64,000 nt of DNA from Halomonas denitrificans (GTDB lineage Bacteria > Pseudomonadota > Gammaproteobacteria > Pseudomonadales > Halomonadaceae), in assembly GCF_003056305.1 (NCBI RefSeq), contig NZ_PYVX01000001.1:1178001-1242000 (forward strand). Direction: 5' to 3'. The notes beneath the pieces are model-generated. The model saw only the letters and a list, made by a program, of their open reading frames with translations. It did not search any database and was not told where the DNA came from. Below are positions 56,576 to 60,892 of the stretch, piece by piece. The position numbers and the translations under genes were made by a program. Numbering within the stretch: the stretch's first letter is position 1; each line of letters starts with the position of its first letter.

Positions 56576-57970
<1,395 letters not shown>

Positions 57971-57985
57971 GTCATCTCTCCGGGG

Positions 57986-58555
57986 TTATTCACTCTGCTG
58001 TCGCAGGTTGATGTTCTGTTCGATGGCGGTGAGCTGCTCGAGCTTCTCGGCCATCGCCTCGAGTTCCTGGCTGAGCGCCTCCTTCTCCTCCACGGCGGCA
58101 TCCGCGGCGCGACGCCGCTCGGCCAGCTGGCCGGCCAGGCTGCGGCGCCCCTCCAGCTCGTTGAGCCAGTAGCGCAGCAGCGGCTGCAGCTCGCTCGGGG
58201 CGCTCGCCAGGTCGGCCTTGAAGAGCTCCGAGGCGCGGTTCCACTGCTGCTCGCTCCCCCAGGCGAGCAGCACGGCGCGCGACAGGCGGCGCACCTTGCC
58301 CTCGCCTTCCAGGCGCAGCAGGGTGGCCTCCCGCCACGCCCGGTCGCCCCGCTGGGAGGTCAGGCCGAAGGCCACCCACTCGGGCAGCAGGCAGTCGTCG
58401 TCCTCGAAATCCGGCAGCGCATCGGTGCAGGCTAGCGTGCCGTTAGGGGCATTCGGCATCGCCACGCCCGAATGGGGCGCGAGCGGCGCGGGCAGATACT
58501 GACATCCGGTCAGCCACAGCGTGGTCAGACACAGCAGCCAGGGGCGTACGGTCAT
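57986..58555 (-). CDS. qseG: QseG-like outer-membrane lipoprotein
   Basis: 189 residues; lipobox LWLTGCQY. C-terminal helix/coiled coil rich in Glu and Ala (RRRAADAAVEEKEALSQELEAMAEKLEQL). Identified mainly by position between glrK and glrR; in E. coli QseG interacts with the kinase periplasmic domain. ATG overlaps the glrK stop (ATGA). Confidence 0.85.
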   Translation of the reverse strand: MTVRPWLLCLTTLWLTGCQYLPAPLAPHSGVAMPNAPNGTLACTDALPDFEDDDCLLPEWVAFGLTSQRGDRAWREATLLRLEGEGKVRRLSRAVLLAWGSEQQWNRASELFKADLASAPSELQPLLRYWLNELEGRRSLAGQLAERRRAADAAVEEKEALSQELEAMAEKLEQLTAIEQNINLRQQSE

Positions 58556-60057
58556 GACAGGTCCTTGGTAGCAGCGTCACCCGCCAGGGCGGGTTGCGAG
58601 TTCGGGTCGCCCGACTCGGGCGACGGGGTCGGCCAGGGCAGGGTGAGCCGGAAGCAGACCGCCAGCCGCGGATCGTCCACCAGCGCCAGCTGGCCCTGCT
58701 GGAGGCGGGCGCAGTCGGCGGCCACCGAGAGGCCGATGCCGGAGCCCTTGAGCGGGCCCTTGCGGCGCGTCCGGCCCTGATAGAAGGCGTCGAAGAGTCG
58801 ATCGCGGTCCTCCTCGGCGATCGGTTCGCCGCTGTTGGCGACCTCGATCACCAGGCGATCCTGAAGCGCGCGGGCGCGGATCTCGAGCTCGCCGCCATCC
58901 TCGCCGTAGGCCACGGCGTTGGAGATCAGGTTGTCGAGCACCCGGGCGGTGGCGGTGCCGTCGAGCGCCCAGGTCAGCGGGCCGTGGAAGCAGCTGACCC
59001 GCATCTCCTTGTTGTCGAGCGCCAGGCGATGCTTGGCCAGCACCTCCTTGACCACGGTGGCGACGTCCAGCCGGGCAATGTCGAGCTGACGGCTGTGCTT
59101 GAGCAGGTTGTAGTCGAGCAGCTGCTCGATCAGCTGCTGCAGCTCGCGCCCGCTGGTGTCGATCAGGTCGAGGATCTCGCGCTGGCGAGGCGTGACCTCG
59201 CCGGCCACGCCGTCGGAGAGCAGCGACGAGCCCTCGCGCACGCTGGCCAGCGGCGTCTTGAGTTCGTGGGACATGTGGCGCAGGAACTGCTGCTTCTGGG
59301 CTTCGAGGTCGTCGAGCCGGGAGGCCAGCCAGTCCAGGCGCTCGCCCAGGGTGACCAGCTCCGCCGGCCCCTTGAGGGGACGGGGCTGGCGCTCGGTGTC
59401 GCCGCCCAGGCTGCCGATGCCGAGGATGCGCCGCTCGAGCTGGCGGATCGGCTGGATGATCAGCCGGGTGAACAGCAGCATCAGCACCAGGCTCGCCGAG
59501 ACCAGCGCCGCGGTCTGCCACCAGAGGCGGATCTGCACGGCCTCGGCACGGGCGCTGATGGCGTCGATGCGCTCGTCGATGCGGCGGTTGGTGGCCTGTC
59601 GCATCTCCTCGGTATGCTGGGCGAAGGGCAGGAAGTCGGAGAGCCGCGCCTTGAACTCTTCCAGCGGCAGATCGGGCAGCTCGGCGAGGTCGTCCAGCGC
59701 CTGCTCCAGGGCCGCCACGTGGGGATCATCGGGCAGCAGCTGGCGCTGCTGGGCCAGCAGCTGCCGGAACTCGGCGAGGCGCTCGTCGAAGATGTCCAGC
59801 AGCCCCTCCTGCTCGACCACCGCGTACTGCCGGGCGCCGCGCTCCATCTCCAGCGCCAGGGCGCCCAGCGAGCGGGCACGCCGGGTCTCCTCCACCGCCT
59901 GGCGGGCACTCTCGTCGGCCAGCCGAGAGAGCTCGGAGAGCGCCTGACCGGCTTGGATCATCAGCACCGCCAGCGGCAGCATCACCACCAGAAAGGCCAG
60001 CAACACCAGCTGCAACAGCGAGCGCGGACGCCAGCGGCGCGTAACGGCTGTGGTCAT
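58552..60057 (-). CDS. glrK: sensor histidine kinase GlrK (QseE)
   Basis: 501 residues from ATG 60057. TM1 ~14-36 (LLQLVLLAFLVVMLPLAVLMI), helical periplasmic domain ~37-180 rich in Leu/Gln/Asp, TM2 (TAALVSASLVLMLLFTRLII), HAMP (IRQLERRILGIGSL), H-box RHMSHELKTPLASV, ATPase (LISNAVAYGEDGG, KGSGIGLSVAADC). Phosphorylates GlrR; cell-envelope cue. An in-frame ATG at 60096 lies within the likely leader. Confidence 0.94.
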   Translation of the reverse strand: MTTAVTRRWRPRSLLQLVLLAFLVVMLPLAVLMIQAGQALSELSRLADESARQAVEETRRARSLGALALEMERGARQYAVVEQEGLLDIFDERLAEFRQLLAQQRQLLPDDPHVAALEQALDDLAELPDLPLEEFKARLSDFLPFAQHTEEMRQATNRRIDERIDAISARAEAVQIRLWWQTAALVSASLVLMLLFTRLIIQPIRQLERRILGIGSLGGDTERQPRPLKGPAELVTLGERLDWLASRLDDLEAQKQQFLRHMSHELKTPLASVREGSSLLSDGVAGEVTPRQREILDLIDTSGRELQQLIEQLLDYNLLKHSRQLDIARLDVATVVKEVLAKHRLALDNKEMRVSCFHGPLTWALDGTATARVLDNLISNAVAYGEDGGELEIRARALQDRLVIEVANSGEPIAEEDRDRLFDAFYQGRTRRKGPLKGSGIGLSVAADCARLQQGQLALVDDPRLAVCFRLTLPWPTPSPESGDPNSQPALAGDAATKDLS

Positions 60058-60163: not shown

Positions 60164-60190
60164 AAAAAAAAGGGCCGGCATGGCCGGCCC
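60164..60190 (-). terminator. strong intrinsic terminator upstream of glrK
   Basis: On the minus strand: GGGCCGGC (60190-60183), CAT loop, GCCGGCCC (60079+100 to 60172, i.e. 60179-60172), then eight T (60171-60164). The strongest terminator in the window. It ends a transcript coming from the argA-glrK gap, 107 nt before the glrK start. Confidence 0.9.
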
Positions 60191-60634
60191 AATACGCAGG
60201 GAACTGAAGGGTCTGGCGGTGTCACCGATCGACGGCCTGGTCCGACCACCGCTGACCTCACCATGGGCCAGAGGCCCCCGAAGCCATGGGAACGCCCTCT
60301 GCCACCAGGGGCCGGTCGCTCTCATGCGGGTGGCCGACCGGCCACCCCGCTTCGTTACTGGCGGCAGCGCCACGAGGGCGATGCCGCGCGATTCGATCCC
60401 CCCTGACCGGGTCGAGACCCGCGGGGGAGAGGCATCCTTGCCAGGGCATCCTTGCCCTCTCGATACCGATCCTTGCCTCTCGGCGGTACCGTCTCATCGC
60501 AACCTAAAGTCACACATCGCTTGGAGCAGACACTGGTCGCGTTCGGGGGACCGGGCGCACAGGGTAGTGATGACGCGGCGCCCCCTCGGCAACCGGAAAA
60601 CGGATCGAGCCGTATGACCCGCTTCCCTTGCTCA
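60164..60634 (-). ncRNA. candidate sigma-54-dependent structured sRNA with CsrA-type loops
   Basis: About 470 nt from the start predicted by the sigma-54 element (near 60634) to the terminator. No credible coding frame. Three CAAGGAU motifs (plus-strand ATCCTTG at 60434, 60448, 60469) all fall in hairpin loops: two are GGC-AAGGAU-GCC hairpins (one extended to AGGGC/GCCCU), the third sits between GGUACCG and CGGUAUC. CARGGAUG is the core CsrA/RsmA site. A further hairpin is GCGGGGUGGCCG/CGGCCACCCGC near 60328-60352. Could instead be a long attenuated glrK leader. Resembles CsrB/RsmZ in motif and glmY in position. Confidence 0.6.
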
Positions 60635-60644
60635 CCCTACCTAT

Positions 60645-60660
60645 TGCCAGGCGCGTGCCA
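60645..60660 (-). promoter_or_regulatory. sigma-54 promoter
   Basis: Minus strand TGGCAC-GCGCC-TGGCA against consensus TGGCAC-N5-TTGCA: perfect -24 box, invariant GC at -12, one mismatch, correct spacing. Directed towards the candidate sRNA and glrK. Confidence 0.8.
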
Positions 60661-60681
60661 ACGACCTCGCAACACCTTAAG

Positions 60682-60694
60682 AATCAGCAGGTTA
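60682..60694 (+). promoter_or_regulatory. IHF-like site upstream of the sigma-54 promoter
   Basis: AATCAG-CAGG-TTA matches WATCAR-N4-TTR exactly and is flanked by A-tracts. It lies 22 bp upstream of the -24 box, where IHF commonly bends DNA to bring a bound activator to the polymerase. Confidence 0.6.
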
Positions 60695-60892
60695 AAAAGG
60701 CAAAAAAACGGCATGGTCGAGCGAGGGAGGCCCGAGCGGGGGAAAACGGGGGTGTGGGCGGCCTGCTTCGTCGCCGAACGGCGACGCCTTTCGAGCCTTG
60801 ACGAAAAAGCCTTTCATTATCAGCGCCTTGACACGTCCCCCTACGGAGACGCCGCGGCGCCGGGCGACGCCTTCCGGCGACAGCCCGGCCCG
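60695..60892. other. argA 3' intergenic region, possible activator-binding stretch
   Basis: About 200 bp between the IHF-like site and the argA stop. A perfect 8-bp inverted repeat CGTCGCCG/CGGCGACG (60769-60786, 2-nt centre) could be an operator or part of the argA terminator, but no T-run follows. I found no exact TGTC-N10-GACA pair, the enterobacterial GlrR site. No gene seen. Confidence 0.4.

Follow-up and report, generated by a model that had tools for sequence, protein, structure and literature searches.

The window examined here, a stretch of DNA of 64 kb to which all coordinates refer, raises the question of what lies in the gap between argA and glrK and what its product would do. A preliminary description had proposed a small RNA controlled by GlrR, sigma-54 and IHF and carrying CsrA-type sites, and this proposal is supported by conservation across the family Halomonadaceae, as far as sequence goes; the IHF-like site, −24/−12 element, CAAGGAU motifs and terminator on which it rested were all found in the window at the positions it gave. 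With high confidence, the argA-glrK gap can be said to hold a real, conserved small-RNA gene, predicted at 60164–60635 on the minus strand (about 470 nt, with a start inferred from the −12 element), which is apparently undescribed, as far as literature searches go. Transcription of this gene is inferred. The fold energy predicted for the whole RNA corresponds to z = −3.5. The gap had been described as containing no credible ORF. ORFs of 79 and 88 aa are open in it, yet a conserved protein is unlikely because the spacing of the ANGGA motifs (20, 21, 22 or 23 nt) shifts from locus to locus by steps other than multiples of three, and a protein-coding gap was rejected on this out-of-frame variation.

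The predicted RNA precedes, on the same strand, the sensor kinase gene glrK (58555–60057), the product of which has HisKA and HATPase domains and the start of which was set at 60057 by conservation; no GlrK-specific NCBIfam model scored above its cut-off for this product. Next come a small lipoprotein-like ORF at the qseG position (57986–58555, minus strand), with a lipobox recognized by eye and no family match, and glrR (56576–57970, minus strand), which encodes a sigma-54 activator matching the GlrR equivalog NF011695 with 807 bits (cut-off 763). The order of RNA, kinase, small lipoprotein-like ORF and GlrR resembles that of glmY-qseE-qseG-qseF. Motif counts in one sequence are not decisive, so the locus was compared with its relatives. 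Loci were collected with the first 352 aa of GlrK as the query, and the best 80 of 141 were kept; one of them (L042) starts too near glrK to hold the promoter and the motif triplet, leaving 79 testable loci, which together with the window form an alignment of 80 rows, 74 of them distinct and used for covariation.

The −24/−12 element (60645–60660, minus strand), described earlier as near-perfect, is the sole match without mismatch across the 64 kb to the consensus used; matches with two or fewer mismatches numbered 7, against 12.7 expected by chance. Its strict pattern recurs in all 79 testable loci (from the best 80 of 141), of which L078 was covered by one of two scans for the box and the rest by both, and in the same 79/79 both the box and the ANGGA triplet are kept, which bears out the conservation in relatives that the proposal would need. 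The RNA gene can be assigned with high confidence to the predicted −24/−12 (sigma-54) promoter class, and no GacA palindrome with two or fewer mismatches was found at the RNA locus. Upstream lie three phased GlrR-type palindromes on the minus strand, called where at least 6/8 letters of TGTC-N10-GACA occur at the given phase. The first (60769–60786, CGTC-N10-GACG) is met in 69/80 sequences (shuffled 3.2), the second (60834–60851, CGTC-N10-GACG) in 74/80 (shuffled 3.0) and the third (60865–60882, TGTC-N10-GTCG) in 47/80 (shuffled 3.7), the phases across the 80 sequences being −126, −191 and −222, or closer by one turn of the helix. Palindromes with at least seven letters occur anywhere in 260 nt in 77.5% of sequences versus 7.8% after shuffling, and those with all eight letters in 22.5% versus 0.4%, the letters being shuffled singly in this control. 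The window's own three palindromes have just 6/8 letters each, which counts against the two-part reading given below. The IHF-like site claimed at 60682–60694 (minus strand, at −34) is present, and the IHF consensus stands at −34 or −33 in 35/80 sequences; a second such site lies at 60818–60830 (minus strand), with the consensus about there, ~170 nt upstream, in 17/80. Within 120 nt, 45% of sequences contain the IHF consensus, versus 0.9% when shuffled. A glmY-type setting, that is, a position before glrK with a sigma-54 box, GlrR-type sites and IHF, is met; this promoter architecture can be read from the DNA, while activation by GlrR is inferred.

The motif of a CsrA site is A(N)GGA. The predicted RNA carries three CAAGGAU motifs (60475–60434, minus strand), and three ANGGA elements with spacings of 20–23 and 13–16 nt occur in 79/79 testable loci (from the best 80 of 141). 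The letters A, G, G and A are identical at each of the three sites in all 80 alignment rows, while N (as A/T/C/G) is distributed 46/17/12/5, 71/3/6/0 and 44/33/1/2 at sites 1, 2 and 3, respectively; only N varies freely, as expected of a CsrA site. Four ANGGA in the predicted RNA are not exceptional in number, being reached by 97/1000 shuffles; three within 36 nt were reached by 14/1000. The three elements are, from their sequence, putative CsrA sites with good confidence, and binding is inferred. The window's genome has one CsrA match, which is 91% identical over 57 residues to H. hydrothermalis CsrA.

The claim that all three motifs stand in hairpin loops holds for two of them, which occupy hexaloops on short GC stems, and the first lies in a bulge. 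A conserved block (GATGTGTGACTTTAGGTTGCGATGAGAC, 60491–60520, minus strand), of which GGTTGCGATGAGA is kept in 78/80 loci (best 80 of 141), precedes hairpin 1 (60462–60490). Here, AAGGA (60474–60470) forms the bulge on the 3′ side, between an inner stem and a covarying outer stem in which 4/6 pairs are changed on both sides. Hairpin 2 (60444–60457) presents AAGGA (60453–60449) in its hexaloop with 99.7% of cells paired, and hairpin 3 (60431–60442) does so (60439–60435) on three invariant GC pairs; an extra pair proposed for hairpin 3 was unsupported, 59/73 cells being unpaired. In a structure set by hand and tested on the 74 distinct rows, 91.6% of cells were paired (shuffled 87.8; slid versions at most 44.4) and 8/17 pairs were changed on both sides, a number reached by 1/500 shuffles. 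The covariation score was 0.154 versus 0.087 shuffled, with 0/500 shuffles as high. RNAalifold unaided recovered 10 pairs, namely the inner stem and hairpins 2 and 3, without the outer stem.

The window's genome also holds two further stretches that, by eye, are candidates for Rsm-type RNAs. One (L082/L095, G000:C8:219962–220066, plus strand) is an RsmZ-like candidate by eye with many GGA and a terminator; it scores 20 bits against RF00166 (cut-off 44) with no Rfam match at E 0.5, and at this low threshold RF00166 also matches in 8/14 control genomes. A second candidate by eye (L097, minus strand, near 1106–1553; G000:C1, ~1286.2–1286.5 kb), with an enolase-like neighbor by eye, lies downstream of a one-mismatch GacA palindrome and likewise matched no Rfam family at E 0.5. 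A single GacA palindrome in the genome is exact (L096), and it has no adjoining ANGGA cluster, and the GacA palindrome pattern is no commoner than its control.

The most conserved part of the RNA, absent from the preliminary description, is its 3′ segment CCCUUCAGUUCCCUGCGUA (60193–60211, minus strand), a candidate mRNA-pairing seed. Among the best 80 of 141 loci, GUUCCCUGCGUA before the terminator and GTTCCCTGCGTA within the segment are each kept in 80/80, and CTTCAGTTCCCTGCGTA in 77/80; the 20 letters ACCCTTCAGTTCCCTGCGTA are identical across 12 aligned sequences. In the predicted fold (60635–60164, minus strand), the 3′ segment (UUCCCUGC) is base-paired to GCAAGGGAA at the 5′ end, and the seed could be self-masked. 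In one metagenome-assembled genome (L028), the segment CCCTGCGTAT stands twice in tandem at the RNA 3′ end, as if the seed had been duplicated. The 3′ ends of two further loci (L051:2744–2821 and L070:2671–2747) resemble SorY with 36 and 35 bits, perhaps through a shared 3′ design; homology to SorY was not accepted at these scores, the cut-off being 111.

In many RNA-carrying genera, the 3′ segment is complementary to the Shine-Dalgarno region of flhD, and it is poorly so in genus g3, where the RNA is missing but for one weak match. The complement TACGCAGGGAACTG was searched in four genomes with two or fewer mismatches, which gave in G237 a site, TACGCAGGGAATTATATG, covering the Shine-Dalgarno region of a gene named flhD by eye from its protein; no genome-wide enrichment of the segment complement was found, the totals being below the reversed control in all four genomes. 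A screen of six genomes for GCAGGGAA placed 3–12 nt before an ATG (ORFs of at least 50 aa, 45 entries) recovered flhD in 5/6, the exception being the window's own genome; every other gene turned up in two genomes at most. That flhD recurs is in part an effect of selection, since flhD leaders had already been read when five of these six genomes were picked; the absence of other recurring genes is not a product of genome choice. FlhD was found in 209/275 genomes, from which 70 leaders were taken (the 30 most similar and 40 chosen), 54 from RNA-carrying genomes and 16 from g3. The mean duplex energy was −20.0 kcal/mol for the 54 versus −10.2 for the 16, and the mean over 13 genera was −19.3 versus −12.9 (sd 1.1) for shuffled segments, with 0/300 as strong. 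Energies of −20 or better were reached by 59% of the 54 flhD leaders versus 7.6% of 198 other leaders, which were taken from the glrK loci (best 80 of 141) and average −15.5.

Several points temper this result. Genus g3 is one lineage, and its contrast counts as one event. AGGGA, present in many of the flhD leaders, also fits the ANGGA pattern, and its conservation could thus stem from direct binding of CsrA. For the window's own species the flhD pairing is weak, at −13.1 kcal/mol, worse than the background mean; the window's genus (g1) averages −17.2 and genus g153 −12.4. The complementarity is observed and the pairing is inferred, and flhD is held to be a predicted target with moderate confidence in many genera and with low confidence in the window's own species. 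A second screen for AGGGAACT before ATG in 10 genomes gave 77 sites, of which the loci of 30 plus five further sites were read. One homologous ORF in G381, G413 and G431 was taken as antisense, the opposite strand presumably encoding the end of a threonyl-tRNA synthetase. The sequence AGGGAACTTCCATG occurs in G000, G364 and G431, where the ORFs of G000 (acyltransferase-like) and G364 are unrelated and G431 gave none.

The most likely reading, to which we give a probability of roughly 0.6 in the absence of transcript, binding or mutant data, is a two-part small RNA driven by GlrR and sigma-54, in which a CsrA-binding domain is joined to a 3′ end that pairs with mRNA; its transcription, GlrR activation, CsrA binding and mRNA pairing all remain inferred. 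With IHF assisting, GlrR, probably in a form phosphorylated by GlrK, would activate the RNA gene with sigma-54 RNA polymerase, as for enterobacterial glmY. The ANGGA elements, of which two lie in hairpin loops and the third in a bulge, would bind one or two CsrA dimers, while the near-invariant UUCCCUGCGUA before the terminator would pair with mRNA. In many genera its target would be the flhD Shine-Dalgarno region, where pairing would block translation, and both arms would lower flagellar synthesis during an envelope signal, if CsrA supports flhDC as in E. coli; this direction of effect is likewise inferred.

The RNA might instead be purely an antagonist of CsrA, which by titration alone would place other Rsm RNAs alongside one with a GlrR input, while the 3′ segment would serve stability or Hfq. 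This is unlikely, if not negligible: the ANGGA triplet with its structure and the presence of CsrA are in its favor, yet the 3′ segment is better conserved and is kept where ANGGA are reduced, only three sites are conserved, and the flhD complementarity would be left aside. The number of CsrA sites, three or four and far below that of CsrB, also counts against the two-part reading, as does the reduction of ANGGA in genus g2, where the 3′ segment is kept. Titration of CsrA, as first proposed, is probably just part of the function, because there are three conserved sites and the same genome offers two more candidates for RNAs of Rsm type; the conserved ANGGA-type sites stand, and binding to them is inferred. 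The opposite case, a purely base-pairing small RNA in which the ANGGA hairpins are there for folding or for some other protein, with CsrA bound only weakly or incidentally, appears improbable. Genus g2, which keeps the 3′ segment with one to three ANGGA, would fit it, but N being free with A, G, G and A fixed at three sites is what a CsrA site predicts. The two-part reading is kept.

The intrinsic terminator (60164–60190, minus strand), placed 107 nt before glrK in the preliminary description, was confirmed at that distance from the glrK start set by conservation (60057). In 80/80 loci (best 80 of 141), the 3′ segment is followed by a terminator-like run of at least five T. These T runs speak against transcription that simply continues into glrK, in which case the RNA would be a long 5′ leader and not an independent RNA. 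Such a leader would be consistent with an RNA on the coding strand before glrK, and glmY of P. mirabilis is co-transcribed with qseEGF, according to the part of that article available (PMC8745638). It is very doubtful all the same, as G347 has a second copy elsewhere in its genome, again with a box-like element and with a 3′ end much like the first, and as for E. coli the accessible portion of the report describes virtually no read-through from glmY to qseE (PMC6075780).

A model of the RNA (R1) matched 162/275 genomes of the family and 17/24 genera under strict filters, some with two or three copies. Twenty-two genomes were inspected, 17 without and 5 with an R1 match. In six of them, all of genus g3, only kinase-domain-type GlrK matches were found (best E 3.5e-27 to 4.2e-20), and the other 16 gave E 1.8e-187 to 2.9e-99. 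The box and 3′ segment lie before glrK in 10/16 genomes with GlrK, the ANGGA being reduced in those of g2, and 6/16 have neither; in the four printed of these six box-less loci, an argA-like frame (by eye) ends near glrK in three and ~150 nt off in one. In genus g3, R1 finds the RNA just once, weakly. Over 390 genomes of the order, R1 matched 16 times. The 10 strong matches all fall within the family; the six weak ones lie elsewhere and were set aside, two as of CsrB/Rsm type by eye (L091, L092) and four as chance-like. With an E limit of 0.01, the model of the 3′ end (R2) matched 107 of 369 genomes of the class; only the window's genome and G036, both of the family, exceeded 31 bits, and many of the rest among the matches listed cover the terminator only. 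Nothing convincing was found outside the family with R1 in the 390 genomes or R2 in the 369. L092 (G128:C1:360556 on) is CsrB-like, with 17 ANGGA in the printed stretch and 27 bits to RsmY, below the cut-off of 57. L094 (G347:C18:78646–78745) is a second RNA copy at an unrelated locus, with the box-like element CGGCATG and the similar 3′ end GTTCCTGCGTA, and the two copies in G347 are reminiscent of GlmY/GlmZ. No Rfam family reached its cut-off for the RNA, a tRNA beside L092 being the sole hit above cut-off, and in the comparison with known RNA models that had been suggested, those of the CsrB/RsmY/RsmZ clan gave no match up to E 10 in the 2-kb region. A diverged GlmY or GlmZ acting via RapZ on glmS is hardly credible despite the position and promoter class shared with glmY, as the GlmY/GlmZ models, included in that comparison, gave no match up to E 10 in the 2 kb either, no GlmY feature was recognized, and such homology was rejected.

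A bolder extension of the two-part reading would be that in Halomonadaceae GlrK/GlrR acts on a promoter like that of glmY, in the place where glmY would stand, to produce a different RNA; this RNA would couple envelope state to CsrA and silence flhD directly by covering its Shine-Dalgarno sequence, and it would be absent together with GlrK from one large genus. We put this tentatively, at somewhat under an even chance. If the two-part reading is true, CsrA gains a sigma-54/GlrR input not found described in literature searches, GlrR gains a small-RNA output besides GlmY, and a second RNA joins CsrA binding with flhD pairing; if the bolder one is true, one transcript acts twice against motility.

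Among known systems, CrcZ of Pseudomonas is also a sigma-54-driven RNA capturing a post-transcriptional regulator; it differs in that CbrB drives it and its partner is Hfq/Crc instead of CsrA. The promoter of McaS is CRP-driven, unlike the sigma-54-type promoter here. The CsrB, RsmY and RsmZ RNAs share ANGGA in hairpin loops, a trait met here with fewer sites, and R1 weakly matches two such RNAs in other families; the halomonad RNA differs in having three conserved sites and not many, a sigma-54/GlrR-type and not GacA-type promoter, and a conserved pairing-like 3′ end. The csrB gene of E. amylovora is under GacA and IHF, with RpoN named in connection with type III secretion, in the available part of the source (PMC5109040). 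In a literature search with subscription journals mostly outside its scope, and with sources available only in part, neither an RNA of this kind in Halomonas or Chromohalobacter nor a GlrR- or RpoN-driven CsrA-binding RNA was found described. A 2020 table, from a source accessible in part, gives the GacS-GacA sRNA of Halomonas anticariensis as unknown (PMC7366521); strain FP35 of this species carries the RNA (L033).

GlmY and McaS are likewise among the closest known systems. As far as the portions of the reports available go, glmY of P. mirabilis has three QseF sites (consensus TGTCN10GACA) and two IHF sites, and its sigma-70 and sigma-54 promoters overlap (PMC8745638), while that of E. coli is described with QseF, IHF and sigma-54 (PMC6075780). 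The halomonad RNA is similarly placed before glrK/qseE, with a sigma-54 box, three QseF/GlrR-type sites and IHF-like sites, but it has no GlmY Rfam match and carries CsrA-type elements. McaS, in the accessible part of its description, has four GGA motifs, sequesters CsrA and targets csgD and flhD, the mRNA of the latter being stabilized by CsrA (PMC10729762). Both are non-CsrB RNAs with few GGA motifs that combine, in McaS, or would combine, here, CsrA binding with mRNA pairing, including flhD; the difference is that in the halomonad RNA the predicted pairing takes in the Shine-Dalgarno region of flhD, so that its effect would be repression. The Rfam search, the only one made for a relation to McaS, gave no family above cut-off for the halomonad RNA. 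With no relation to either RNA demonstrated, the best reading is of an RNA that would be controlled like GlmY and would work like McaS.
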